From: Arthrobacter pullicola
Lineage (GTDB): Bacteria; Actinomycetota; Actinomycetes; Actinomycetales; Micrococcaceae
Reading direction: 5' to 3'
Assembly (NCBI RefSeq): GCF_014836875.1
Contig: NZ_JACSQC010000007.1
Span: 2,555 to 66,554 of the forward strand
DNA length: 64,000 nt
This document shows positions 34,373 through 37,097 of the stretch, piece after piece (position 1 is the stretch's first letter; every line of letters begins with the position of its first letter). The position numbers were made by a program, and so were the translations under genes. The notes under the pieces are model-generated. The model ran no database searches. It was not told the DNA's origin and was given only the letters and a program-made list of their open reading frames with translations.

Positions 34373-34446
<74 letters not shown>

Positions 34447-34450
34447 CGAT

Positions 34451-34485
34451 AAGCCTGACGGAACGCAAGTTCTGTCGGGCTTTTT
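34451..34485 (+). terminator. Intrinsic terminator of tRNA-Pro
   Basis: AAGCCTGACGGAAC (34451-34464), loop GCAA, GTTCTGTCGGGCTT (34469-34482), with two G-U pairs, followed by TTT. One of the few classic U-tract terminators in the window. Confidence 0.85.
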
Positions 34486-34665
34486 GTCGTTTCCGGGGTT
34501 GGTTGTCGCTGTGCGGCCCAGGTGCCGGGTGCTGAGCGTGCAGGTATGGCGGCGATCTTGGCCGTTGAGGCCACCAGGGCTGCACCCTCGACGCCAGGAA
34601 GACGACGCGCGGCGGTCTGCGCGGGGTGCTCAGCGGTTCCTGCCGCCCTTGCTAGCGTTGGGTTC
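34486..34665. other. Intergenic, nothing recognised
   Basis: 180 nt between the tRNA terminator and the deaminase gene. I see no convincing ORF with a ribosome site, palindrome or repeat. Confidence 0.5.
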
Positions 34666-35157
34666 ATGACCGCGTTCTATGATCCTTCGCCCACCGAACT
34701 GCACCATCTGCGCCGCTGTGTGGAACTTGCGCGCACCGCCCTGGACGGCGGCGACGAGCCTTTTGGCTCCCTGCTGGTCGACGCCGAAGGCCGGGTGCTG
34801 TTCGAAGACCGCAACCGGGTCAAGGACGGTGACGCCACCCGCCACCCCGAGTTCGAGATTGCCCGTTGGGCTGCGGAGCACCAAACTCCCGCCGAACGGG
34901 CGGCAAGCACGGTCTTCACCTCAGGGGAGCACTGCCCGATGTGCGCCGCTGCGCACGGCTGGGTGGGGCTCGGCCGCATCGTTTACGCCAGCAGCAGCGA
35001 GCAGCTGTCCCAGTGGCTGGCCGAGTGGGATGTTCCTGCAGGCCCGGTGGCCGCGCTCCCGATCGCGGCTGTGGTGCCGGGGCTCGACATCGCAGGGCCG
35101 GTTGCGGAGCTGAGCGGGGAAGTCCGGGCGCTCCAGGCCCGGCTGCGGGGCCGCTGA
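34666..35157 (+). CDS. Nucleoside/cytidine deaminase-like protein
   Basis: 163 aa from ATG 34666. Zinc-dependent CDA fold: the H-x-E-equivalent segment TRHPEFEIARWAAE (~60; HPE with catalytic Glu) and the second zinc motif SGEHCPMCAAAHGW (~86), where CPMC supplies two Cys ligands. GDEPFGSLLVDAEGRVL and LGRIVYASSSEQLSQWL fit the guanine/cytosine/tRNA-adenosine deaminase branch. The proline that usually precedes the first Cys is replaced by His (HCPMC). The substrate, a free base or nucleoside, is undetermined. Stand-alone gene downstream of tRNA-Pro. Confidence 0.82.
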   Translation: MTAFYDPSPTELHHLRRCVELARTALDGGDEPFGSLLVDAEGRVLFEDRNRVKDGDATRHPEFEIARWAAEHQTPAERAASTVFTSGEHCPMCAAAHGWVGLGRIVYASSSEQLSQWLAEWDVPAGPVAALPIAAVVPGLDIAGPVAELSGEVRALQARLRGR

Positions 35158-35281
35158 CATCCCGCTGCACCCGGGGGTCGTGCTCAGTTATGGCTATCCA
35201 CAGGCGGCCGATCGCAAACCGAAGGGCTCTGGCGGCGGCGCGGCGCCCGTCGGTAAACTAGCCACGGCCGTGCAAGCGAAT

Positions 35282-35384
35282 GAGGAGGTGGTACCCGTGA
35301 ATACATCGACGTGGGTGCTCCTCTCTGGAGTCATGGCCGGACGATAGGTCGTCCGGGAGCGCCATTCAAAGCACTCCCGAAAGG
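35282..35384 (+). promoter_or_regulatory. Candidate leader-peptide attenuator with alternative hairpins
   Basis: Strong SD GAGGAGGT (35282-35289), 16-codon ORF (35297-35347), hairpin A CCGGACGA/TCGTCCGG (35337-35344 with 35349-35356, loop TAGG containing the stop), and hairpin B CGGGAG/CTCCCG (35354-35359 with 35374-35379). A and B share 35354-35356 and cannot coexist. B abuts the GAAAGG SD (35379-35384) of the downstream hydrolase. CTCCTC at 35318-35323 can also pair with the leader SD. Confidence 0.6.
35297..35347 (+). CDS. 16-residue leader peptide MNTSTWVLLSGVMAGR
   Basis: GTG start 7 nt after one of the strongest Shine-Dalgarno sequences in the window (GAGGAGGT), and TAG stop at 35345-35347. 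The peptide is mostly Thr/Ser/Val/Leu with one Trp; there is no run of a single amino acid, so this does not look like a classic biosynthetic attenuator. The stop codon sits in the loop of a perfect 8-bp hairpin, so a ribosome terminating or stalling here would open it. It precedes the hydrolase ORF by 44 nt. Interpretation as a regulatory leader is inference. Confidence 0.6.
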   Translation: MNTSTWVLLSGVMAGR

Positions 35385-35391
35385 CACGACC

Positions 35392-36123
35392 ATGCACTTC
35401 ATTTCCGAACGCCATCTCGATGACGGTGTCCTCGAACGCGAATTCACCCTCGGCGGCATCCCGGGCATCCTGTGGACTCCCGCCTCCGTATCCACACCAG
35501 CGCCGCTGATCCTGCTTGGGCACCCCGGCGGGCTGCGCCCAATGTACCCCCGGTTGGCGGGGCGGGCCCGGAGCTCAGCGGCAAGCGGTTTCGCTGCAGC
35601 CAGCATCGAACTCCCCGGAGCCGGCAGCCGGCCCCGATTGCCCGAGGCCGAGCAGGCCCGCGCCGATCTGCAGGCGGCGCTGGCCGCCGGAGAACCGGTC
35701 GCCGCTGAGATTGTGGACCGGCTGGTCCTCCCGCTGGTGGAGCAAGCGGTCCCGGAATGGCAGGCAACCCTGGACGCACTTCTGGCCCTGCCTGAAATCC
35801 GCGGGCCGGTCGGGTTTTCGGGCGGAGTGATCGCCATTGGGATCCGGCTGGCGCTAAGAGAGCCCCGCATCAAGGCTGCAGGGCTCTTCGCCGGGAGTTT
35901 TGTGCCCCGCGCGATGATCGACGAAGCCCGTCAGGTCACCATTCCGCTGCACATCCTGCTGCAGTGGGATGACGAGGGAAACGACCGGCAGCTGGCACTG
36001 GACCTGTTCGACGCTTTCGGATCAAGGGAGAAGACGCTGCAGGCCAACATGGGCGGACATGCCGGTGTTCCGCCGTACGCGGGGGAAGATGCGGCCAGAT
36101 TCTTCGCCCGGCACCTGATCTGA
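35392..36123 (+). CDS. Alpha/beta hydrolase (dienelactone hydrolase-like)
   Basis: 243 aa. The oxyanion strand is PLILLGHPGGLRPMYPRLAGRA (~42-63), with the nucleophile elbow in GPVGFSGGVIAIGIRL (Ser ~145), an acidic residue in HILLQWDDEGN (~190) and the catalytic His in MGGHAGVPPYAGED (~224). It lacks a signal peptide, so it acts in the cytosol. Substrate not identifiable; candidates are esters or lactones, including drug-like ones. The gene follows a leader peptide with alternative hairpins, an arrangement known for translation-inhibitor-inducible genes, so its expression may respond to ribosome stalling. That link is inference. Confidence 0.8.
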   Translation: MHFISERHLDDGVLEREFTLGGIPGILWTPASVSTPAPLILLGHPGGLRPMYPRLAGRARSSAASGFAAASIELPGAGSRPRLPEAEQARADLQAALAAGEPVAAEIVDRLVLPLVEQAVPEWQATLDALLALPEIRGPVGFSGGVIAIGIRLALREPRIKAAGLFAGSFVPRAMIDEARQVTIPLHILLQWDDEGNDRQLALDLFDAFGSREKTLQANMGGHAGVPPYAGEDAARFFARHLI

Positions 36124-36186
36124 TGACGAGCCGCCAGGGGAGCCCGATGTCCCCTGCTGCGGCGGATGACACAGGTTCGCGGCAGC

Positions 36187-36708
36187 CTATGAGATGAGAA
36201 GTCCGACGTCGTCAGCGACAGCAGCCATCTGTCCCGCAAACTGATGGCCACCGGTCTCGTGCCGGCGTACGACGGCGCCGGGCAGCAGGGCTGCCAAACG
36301 GTCAAGATGGTCGACGGGCACAGTGTCGTCGTCACGGCAGTGGTGCAGGTAAAGCGGAAGGCCCGCTGGCAGCTCGTAGCCAGCCGGCAGAGCGTACTCG
36401 GCCTGCCAGCCCTCGGATCCCCAGAATGGTGTCGCCAGCAGGACGAGCCCCCGCGGCAGGGGACCATGCCACCCTCCACCCAGGCGAAGGAGCGCCATCG
36501 ACGCCCCGAAGGAGTGTCCGATGATCGCCAGGTCCGGCCCCAGGGCATCCCGCTGGCGGTCCAGCTCAGCGAACCAGGCCGCAGCGGACATATCCTCTTC
36601 GGGGTAACGGGCCATCGCCACCGGAACGCCCAGCCGGGTGCGCAGCTCTTCGGCCAGCGGCTGGTCGTCGAGCCAGCCGCCGGCGCCGTGGATAAAAAGG
36701 AAGTCCAT
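36187..36708 (-). CDS. Small alpha/beta hydrolase (RBBP9/YdeN-like)
   Basis: 173 aa from ATG 36708, preceded by GGGAG; the frame continues to 36807 without a better start. The N-terminal strand is MDFLFIHGAGGWLDDQPLAEEL, the nucleophile elbow LAIIGHSFGASMALLRLGG (Ser ~66), the acid in HHCRDDDTVPVDHLDRL (~137) and the His in RHETGGHQFAG (~161). The compact size and second-half RDDD-VP...GGH layout fit the serine hydrolase RBBP9/YdeN group. Function unknown; it converges with the leader-controlled hydrolase. Confidence 0.8.
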   Translation of the reverse strand: MDFLFIHGAGGWLDDQPLAEELRTRLGVPVAMARYPEEDMSAAAWFAELDRQRDALGPDLAIIGHSFGASMALLRLGGGWHGPLPRGLVLLATPFWGSEGWQAEYALPAGYELPAGLPLYLHHCRDDDTVPVDHLDRLAALLPGAVVRRHETGGHQFAGQMAAVADDVGLLIS

Positions 36709-36815
36709 GAGTTCTCCCACGGAGTTGATCCGGCCTGAGACTGCCAGTACTACTCTCCTTAGGAGGGCCGGTCCACCCAGGGCGTGCATCCTTGGTGCCG
36801 GAAACACGTTGCGTG

Positions 36816-36832
36816 ATACCCAGCGGGGGTAT
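36816..36832. promoter_or_regulatory. CsoR-type copper box 1
   Basis: ATACCC-AGCGG-GGGTAT, perfect 6-bp arms. It matches the TACCC...GGGTA pattern bound by the copper-sensing repressor CsoR. Confidence 0.8.
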
Positions 36833-36846
36833 ACAGTCGGTTACGG

Positions 36847-36863
36847 ATACCCAGTAGGGGTAT
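36847..36863. promoter_or_regulatory. CsoR-type copper box 2
   Basis: ATACCC-AGTAG-GGGTAT, starting 31 bp (three turns) after box 1 and ending 21 nt before the copZ start. The overlapping TATATG (36861-36866) might be the -10. Confidence 0.8.
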
Positions 36864-36884
36864 ATGTCGATGAGAGGAAACGCG

Positions 36885-37097
36885 ATGACCACGAACGAAT
36901 ACCAGGTGACCGGAATGACCTGCGGGCACTGTGAACTGTCGGTCCGCGAAGAGGTTGAGCAGATCCCCGGCGTCGAAGACATTCAGGTCAGTGCCCAGAC
37001 CGGCCGGCTCGCCGTGACGGCGTCTGAGCCGCTCGATGATTCCAAGGTCCTGGCCGCGGTGGAGGAGGCGGGCTATTCGGCGGTGCGGACAGCATGA
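36885..37097 (+). CDS. copZ: CopZ-like copper chaperone (HMA domain)
   Basis: 70 aa from ATG 36885 behind AGAGGAAA. Single ferredoxin-like heavy-metal-associated domain: YQVTGMTCGHCELSVREEVEQIPGVEDIQVSAQTGRLAVTA, with Cu(I)-binding Cys in MTCGHC (~12 and 15). It should carry Cu(I) to the CopA ATPase encoded two genes downstream. Its stop overlaps the next gene by 4 nt (ATGA). Two CsoR boxes in the promoter imply induction by copper. Confidence 0.92.
   Translation: MTTNEYQVTGMTCGHCELSVREEVEQIPGVEDIQVSAQTGRLAVTASEPLDDSKVLAAVEEAGYSAVRTA

Follow-up and report, generated by a model that had tools for sequence, protein, structure and literature searches.

How is a gene controlled when it is preceded by a short open reading frame (ORF) with its own ribosome site and by two hairpins that share part of their bases? 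An earlier note on the stretch of Arthrobacter pullicola DNA analyzed here (64,000 nucleotides, referred to as the window) had raised this question for a hydrolase-like gene and had suggested a peptide-dependent ribosome-stalling switch, controlling an esterase that might remove a translation inhibitor or other stress compound.

Layout and conservation of the leader

As read from the sequence, the leader spans positions 35266 to 35391 of the window and directly precedes the gene for a 243-amino-acid alpha/beta-hydrolase-like protein (35392 to 36123; this gene and all leader features lie on the forward strand). Upstream lies a promoter-like pair (35229 to 35259) that matches a pattern chosen post hoc, with a -35 element CTGGCG (35229 to 35234) and a -10 element TAAACT (35254 to 35259) separated by 19 nucleotides; the transcript would be expected to begin near position 35266, yielding a leader of approximately 126 nucleotides. 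The leader ribosome site, the 16-codon ORF and both hairpins were found where the earlier note had put them. At the 5' end, the alignment showed a conserved GGCCGTG (35266 to 35272), predicted to pair with 35332 to 35338 in the minimum-free-energy (MFE) structure. The ribosome site GAGGAGGT (35282 to 35289) belongs to a Shine-Dalgarno (SD) region, GAGGAGGTGGTACCC (35282 to 35296), that we named segment 0 on the basis of sequence and alignment and whose CCC (35294 to 35296) can pair with the GGG of segment A. The ORF itself (35297 to 35347) begins with GTG (35297 to 35299), ends with TAG (35345 to 35347) and encodes the peptide MNTSTWVLLSGVMAGR; segment A (GGGTGCTCC; 35313 to 35321), of which the first base is nucleotide 17 of the ORF, is near-invariant in the alignment of five leader classes (A2) discussed below.

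Hairpin 1 (35337 to 35356) is a perfect stem of 8 bp (35337 to 35344 with 35349 to 35356) around the loop TAGG (35345 to 35348). The earlier placement of the stop region in this 4-nucleotide loop is right, except that the loop contains the complete TAG and not just its first bases. The second hairpin, B:C, could likewise be read directly from the sequence as described earlier: 6 bp (35354 to 35359 with 35374 to 35379), sharing the three bases 35354 to 35356 with hairpin 1 and adjoining the target SD. Segment B (GGGAGCGCC; 35355 to 35363) may pair with either A or C; segment C (GCACTCCC) is followed by the target SD, GAAAGG (35379 to 35384; segment and SD together 35371 to 35384), which ends 7 nucleotides before the target ATG at 35392. 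Finally, the MFE structure contains a closing stem between GGTCGT (35347 to 35352) and ACGACC (35386 to 35391), by which the target SD is enclosed. This stem, the pairing of the leader SD and start with A and that of A with B are further possible pairings absent from the earlier note.

A scan of named genomes yielded at least 388 relatives of the target gene (class 1 in what follows), of which the best 80, with proteins 73 to 83% identical to that of the window, were used, so that divergent homologues are undersampled; all class-1 relatives among the matches listed were from actinobacteria. Together with three loci from the window's own genus, these made up 83 homologue loci, and the leader was present before 82 of them (the exception being L035). 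Within the genus, the gene was found in 3 of 29 genomes and the leader in the same 3. All 81 homologues parsed had a leader ORF of 16 or 17 codons plus stop, and mean column identity over 80 aligned class-1 leaders amounted to 88% (alignment A1 was made without L058, which contains an insertion). The earlier note had named the lack of the ORF or stems in relatives that keep the gene as evidence against its reading; in the 80-leader alignment, both were conserved in such relatives. Two loci, L004 and L005, were not counted, since both are pieces of an additional, disrupted hydrolase-like gene in a related genome (G012:C6:183416-183754), located approximately 9 kb from the intact one.

Folding of the window sequence was compared with that of shuffles: region 35266 to 35394 had a z score of -2.86 (1 of 200 shuffles equally stable) and region 35348 to 35394 a z score of -3.72 (0 of 200), while the longer region from 35266 to 35420 was only weakly better than its shuffles (z of -1.66; 12 of 200). 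Conservation is the stronger evidence for the leader. No leader match was found in Rfam at E values up to 1 (five loci, 14778 bases), the sole match in the window at gathering score being a tRNA, and a literature search that included peptide and DNA strings, subscription papers and supplementary tables being outside its scope, retrieved no paper on it. In summary, the leader is a real and widespread element that, to judge from these Rfam and literature searches, is uncatalogued.

Gene families behind the leader

Variants of the leader precede at least five gene families, for the most part unrelated to one another: class-1 hydrolase-like, class-2 hydrolase-like, rifampin-monooxygenase-like (rox), GNAT acetyltransferase and PrmC-like methyltransferase (prmC). 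A covariance model built from 80 leaders (R1) matched 12 of the 396 genomes searched within the phylum, and four of its five weakest matches preceded other genes, namely two hydrolases (41 to 46% identical to that of the window) and two GNAT genes. The core from SD to start, GGAGGTGRKACCCRTGAAC, was found with at most one mismatch in 218 of 295 Streptomyces genomes, an upper bound that includes chance matches; the reversed control occurred once among the matches listed. Nine of the 70 pattern loci (L102 to L171) were judged to be chance matches and excluded (L112, L115, L135, L143, L150, L154, L161, L166 and L169). Outside the named genomes, the set comprised 33 class-1, 20 class-2, 14 rox-like, 22 GNAT and 8 PrmC-like loci, counts in which four loci were assigned by hand, two are repeats and one is the window itself. 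Repeated loci (L102 = L099, L114 = L087, L094 = window = L001, L100 = L003 and L101 = L002) were retained in the hydrolase alignment, and hence in the serine counts, and in the spacing counts given below. A pattern scan across the phylum (396 genomes) did not bring up any further target class; several matches resemble chance occurrences, and in 2 genomes the reversed control was matched as well. On these sequence comparisons, actinobacteria appear to have one uncatalogued switch in common for several stress and drug-modifying genes.

For the target protein of the window, no Pfam or NCBIfam match was obtained at an E value of 0.001. Its nearest solved structure is the esterase 4ao6 (E value of 6.2e-18), in which the serine of the GLSMG elbow is, by the GxSxG rule, presumably the nucleophile. 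At the position of this serine, the class-2 proteins have Asn (12), Gly (2), Ala (2), Thr (1) or Arg (1) and never Ser (0 of 18, with the incomplete proteins L162 and L168 excluded). In class 1, where the elbow is remodelled and shorter by two residues, the counts over 113 rows were Ser 98, Ala 12 and Glu 3; the hydrolase-like alignment retains the Asp motif and, for the most part, the His motif. With Ala or Glu at this position in 15 of 113 class-1 rows and no serine in class 2, the proposal of an esterase that removes a translation inhibitor has become doubtful, as has the name esterase for the target, which might possibly bind or sequester a compound instead of catalyzing its conversion.

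The rox-like targets match the NCBIfam family rif_monoox, and their nearest solved structure is a rifampin monooxygenase (5vqb). Two leader-bearing genes passed the cutoff of 800 for NCBIfam NF033145 (G454:C27, 830.1; G430:C1:6272985, 819); L103, whose gene is truncated at the locus end, scored 751.2. Several leader-bearing rox proteins start like a class-2 hydrolase, with MDSPQFTAEPSSNDTVERDFTVGDVPGLRSP in L103 and a similar sequence in L128, compared with MHSLQFTAESSSNGMVERDFTVGDVPGVLWSP in the class-2 locus L138. Among the 30 top-scoring rox genes of 61 Streptomyces genomes, the leader was found at none of the 28 that were read (the gene starts of L210 and L219 were not located), and a script flagged, at 14 of these leaderless genes, a GGGCTTGC-type repeat, which we take to be part of the rifamycin-associated element. 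Both kinds of rox gene, with and without leader, are present in G454 as well as in G430. The simplest reading of these sequences would be that the leader moved as a cassette, a class-2 leader, start and first codons having been fused to a rox paralogue; the class-2-like N terminus of the rox-class proteins is probably a trace of that transfer.

The GNAT gene was followed by an IF-1-like gene in all 22 leader loci (21 distinct; e.g., L097, L099 and L139). The PrmC-like target scored 427.8 bits against TIGR03704, the cutoff of which is 248.8, and a PrmC-like gene was found in 59 of 61 Streptomyces genomes.

A pair consisting of a TTGGCG-like element (at least four of six positions) and TANNNT was present before the leader SD in 103 of 110 class-1, 17 of 20 class-2, 20 of 21 GNAT, 11 of 14 rox and 0 of 8 prmC loci, mostly at 24 nucleotides from the SD (26 in GNAT); the pattern, picked after the sequences had been viewed and applied upstream of the leader only, also matched 131 of 3460 shuffled regions. 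A generic sigma-70 scan of 34400 to 36900 returned no promoter-like site. As for a transcription start downstream of 35297, which the earlier note had regarded as unfavorable to its reading, the pattern search, confined to the upstream side, places the conserved promoter-like pair before that position, at 35229 to 35259. That mutually exclusive hairpins precede the gene might also suggest transcription attenuation by an intrinsic terminator. This we consider extremely unlikely: no run of T residues follows the B:C hairpin, and the terminator scan gave no terminator-like site from the promoter-like pair up to the target gene. Features of trp- and leu-type attenuators, i.e., a run of regulatory codons in the leader peptide and a terminator with a T run, were absent as well.

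Peptide, reading frame and start codon

Another reading would be that a specific nascent peptide arrests the ribosome, as in the erm or cml type of drug-induced arrest. The class-1 leader peptides do have an almost constant S-T-W-V-L and V-G-R, and either STWVL or the GR-stop end might be read as an arrest motif. However, of the 61 distinct codon variants in 74 class-1 leaders of 17 codons, 17 were synonymous and 44 non-synonymous (19.1 and 41.9 expected without constraint on the amino acids), and R or G takes the place of the tryptophan in L012, L028 and L049. The other sets gave 13 synonymous and 35 non-synonymous variants in 36 leaders of 16 codons (15.6 synonymous expected), 14 and 32 in class-2/rox leaders (14.3 expected), 7 and 39 in a second class-2/rox set (13.2 expected) and, for GNAT, 8 of 52 synonymous and 44 non-synonymous (15.6 expected). 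The test is crude, in that distinct variants are held against one consensus under an assumed transition bias and the same bases are under RNA constraint. In addition, 18 of the 22 GNAT leaders (17 of 21 without the repeated locus) combine a different spacing from start to segment A, and a different peptide, with the same RNA: A begins at nucleotide 19 and is therefore read in another frame (e.g., MNTVTHGCSLNPSRSGG). Because the codon test gave no sign of amino-acid selection and most GNAT leaders are in another frame, we conclude that it is the leader RNA rather than the peptide that is conserved. The peptide-specific stalling switch of the earlier note was not borne out; in view of the codon test, peptide arrest was given up as the leading explanation and is in our estimation very unlikely.

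The distance from the leader start to the first base of segment A was 17 to 20 nucleotides wherever it was measured, with one exception (23 nucleotides); 10 rows, 9 of them class 1, were not measurable. In class 1, the spacing is 17, 20 or 23 nucleotides, i.e., in frame, in 105 of 105 measured rows, which we read as a possible need for the ORF to end within hairpin 1.

In the PrmC class, the leader start codon is AUU in 24 and AUC in 5 of 30 Streptomyces loci (L235 to L264; the core is lost in L259), with AUG, GUG or UUG in 0 of the 30, whereas the other leader classes have AUG or GUG at this position. Of these starts, 26 were parsed by script and three (L254, L261 and L264) by eye. The frame that begins with AUU or AUC closes after 14 to 21 codons in the 26 parsed leaders, and after 16 to 21 codons in 25 of them, the remaining two frames being mostly open or irregular. 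That the first eight prmC loci all had AUC is due to the search pattern, from which AUU-ACC differs at two positions. A pattern with a free third base matched in 110 of 199 Streptomyces genomes, with ATTACCGC as the commonest form among the matches listed, beside ATGAACGC, the class-2/rox form of the core. Beyond Streptomyces, the leader precedes PrmC-like genes in L269, L270, L272, L273 and L288, while many PrmC-like genes there are without it, including L294 of the window's own genome.

These observations bear on the idea that a protein, small RNA or small molecule binds the conserved RNA, the ORF being incidental. A mean column identity of 88% is more than an ORF requires, and the outcome of the codon test would fit. 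Against this, the class-1 frame is kept in every measured row (9 more being unmeasured), the PrmC-class frame closes after 16 to 21 codons in 25 of 26 parsed leaders despite its AUU or AUC start and a strong leader SD is conserved across all classes. We therefore regard a mere binding site as quite unlikely.

Alternative pairings and the proposed switch

In alignment A2 (111 sequences from five classes), the proportions of cells paired were 96.8% for 0:A, 97.5% for A:B and 92.7% for B:C, values that are lowered by the misplacement of segment B in L191, L194 and L195. The pairings are mutually exclusive, since A pairs with either the SD segment or B, and B with either A or C. For B:C, both-sided changes from G-C to A-U occurred in 14 sequences (G-U in 8), a number reached by 0 of 500 shuffles; all of these changes affect one pair in the GNAT class and may go back to a single event, and the count of covarying B:C pairs was not above that of shuffles (487 of 500 had as many). 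The covariation score of 0:A was matched by 1 of 500 shuffles. The measures for A:B were matched by 41 to 268 of 500, none being clearly better, so that the case for this predicted pairing rests on near-invariance. A conserved leader ORF and mutually exclusive pairings do precede the target start, and in that respect the logic of ribosome-controlled attenuation, put forward in the earlier note, is supported by alignments and pairings.

At a probability of roughly 0.55, our main reading is that the leader is a cis-acting translation attenuator, set by ribosomes arrested at its first codons, and a member of an actinobacterial leader family; leader translation, the arrest itself, the inducers and the direction in which the switch works are inferred. 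The target would be kept off in two ways: a free leader would pair its own SD and start with segment A, and ribosomes traversing the short ORF without arrest would cover A. In both cases, B would be free for C, and the B:C hairpin together with the closing stem would enclose the target SD and start. A ribosome held at codon 1 or 2 would cover segment 0 and stop just short of A, which would then take B once B had been transcribed and before C existed, such that C and the target SD would stay free. The signal would be ribosome occupancy of the leader start, such as arises when initiation or the first steps of elongation are inhibited, and not the sequence of the peptide. The footprint of an initiating ribosome extends approximately 15 to 16 nucleotides past the start; since A begins at 17 to 20 nucleotides, it would lie just outside.

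Spacing and the folding of nascent transcripts agree with such a dependence on start-codon arrest; equilibrium folding of the full-length leader disagrees. When transcripts from 159 loci were cut after B (another 14 were skipped because A or B was unlike the search string), the mean A:B probability was 0.82 to 0.99 in the five classes with a ribosome at codon 1, 0.70 to 1.00 at codon 2, 0.01 to 0.09 at codon 3 and 0.00 at codons 4, 6 and 10, a codon dependence that is partly a product of the assumed ribosome footprint. Without a ribosome, 0:A reached 0.79 to 1.00 and A:B 0.00 to 0.15; with a ribosome at the stop codon, A:B was 0.23 to 0.44 in class 2, gnat and rox. At equilibrium, however, the full leader (106 loci) with a ribosome at codons 1 and 2 gave A:B probabilities of only 0.00 to 0.13, prmC excepted (0.49 to 0.67). 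Forcing A:B on the full transcript (155 loci) cost 3.4 kcal/mol in hyd1, 8.3 in hyd2, 4.9 in gnat, 10.4 in rox and 1.2 in prmC, and rendered the target SD less open in hyd1 (0.46 versus 0.62), hyd2 (0.41 versus 0.52) and rox (0.58 versus 0.62); it became more open only in gnat (0.55 versus 0.44) and prmC (0.50 versus 0.38). With equilibrium folding against the start-codon step and nascent folding in favor of it, the model needs cotranscriptional folding.

A different and weaker effect emerged from the equilibrium scan, one that agrees with the two hairpins of the earlier note and with arrest in the middle of the ORF: a stall before approximately codon 11 would allow hairpin 1 to form and free the target start, while a ribosome at the end of the leader would break hairpin 1 and let the closing stem hide the SD. 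In the window, the SD was 0.72 to 0.82 unpaired with a ribosome at codons 7 to 11, compared with 0.25 at the stop and 0.62 without a ribosome. The class means likewise fell toward the end of the ORF in hyd1 (from approximately 0.65 to 0.47), hyd2 (0.59 to 0.45), rox (0.63 to 0.46-0.52) and gnat (0.55 to 0.37-0.45), though not in prmC, and the leader stop of classes 1, 2, rox and gnat lies inside or beside the loop of hairpin 1. On the other hand, the SD is about 0.6 open even without a ribosome (0.55 to 0.64 in four classes), no stall site is marked by peptide or codon conservation, and the closing stem is weak in part of the loci: its longest run is at least 5 bp in 103 of 110 class-1 loci and only 3 to 4 bp in the other 7, as it is in 7 of 20 class-2 loci. 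Swapping of closing-stem halves had a mixed outcome (class 1, 5.80 bp with its own half versus 4.28 to 5.55 with those of other classes; class 2, 5.00 bp versus 5.85 with rox), in a test from which a regular expression omitted 16 GNAT, 3 prmC and 2 class-1 loci. We regard mid-ORF arrest as unlikely and place the start-codon model ahead of it on three grounds: the spacing, the lack of peptide selection and the start-codon arrest published for upstream ORFs (uORFs) of S. coelicolor (PMC12421871).

Compared with known systems, the leader is one that, judging from its sequence, works like a translation attenuator lacking the peptide that defines the erm type. In erm and cat attenuators, a drug has to act together with a specific nascent peptide while the ribosome is at a mid-leader codon. 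Both they and the present leader have an upstream ORF served by a separate SD as well as mutually exclusive hairpins, although the target SD is enclosed here rather than fully paired; in contrast to them, no arrest peptide is conserved, as indicated by the codon test and the GNAT peptides. The WhiB7/WblC leader senses ribosome stress and controls a regulator acting in trans. Ribosome-stress sensing before actinobacterial stress or resistance genes would be common to both, whereas every target considered here has its own copy of the leader in cis. The WhiB7/WblC leader is also mentioned in PMC12421871, which mainly concerns us for the S. coelicolor uORFs tiaAL and are5scL1, where early-acting drugs hold the ribosome at the start codon. 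These (peptides MVGDDDISG and MLV) are similar to the present leader in combining a short uORF in an actinobacterial 5' untranslated region with competing RNA structures before a resistance gene; they differ in peptides and in targets, which are ABCF proteins, and the present leader is common to five families.

The fixed AUU or AUC would make the PrmC copy a sensor of initiation stringency or 30S occupancy (i.e., the state of IF1 and IF3). A conserved AUU start codon is also the basis of infC autoregulation. There, too, AUU makes initiation dependent on start-codon discrimination, as it would in the PrmC leader, but what it starts here is the short ORF of the leader preceding a PrmC-like gene and not the main gene. 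The GNAT copy, located before an operon with an IF-1 paralogue, would join the PrmC copy in a cis-wired response to disturbed initiation. We tentatively extend the start-codon model to a portable RNA switch that reads a ribosome parked on the start codon, independently of the peptide, before all five families, with the PrmC copy sensing the state of initiation and not drugs; this wider picture is a speculation, possible rather than probable. If true, a single stress response would connect these unstudied hydrolase-like proteins with the PrmC-like methyltransferase, the acetyltransferase and its neighboring IF-1 paralogue, and a paralogue of rifampin monooxygenase; attenuation could be independent of the peptide and movable between genes. 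It would also allow one to test directly, in soil actinobacteria, which compounds arrest ribosomes at the start codon, the conserved AUU leader would offer a handle on the sensing of initiation stringency and the leader could serve as a signature for finding more genes under the same control.

Finally, the neighborhood of the leader in the window contains a strong hairpin (34451 to 34482) that resembles a terminator and has a T run, just past tRNA-Pro(GGG), and, between this hairpin and the leader, a cytidine/deoxycytidylate-deaminase-like gene (PF00383; 34666 to 35157), a stretch that BLAST also located upstream of the related locus L003. Downstream of the target, a second, different alpha/beta hydrolase (Abhydrolase_6; 36187 to 36807, reverse strand) is encoded convergently.
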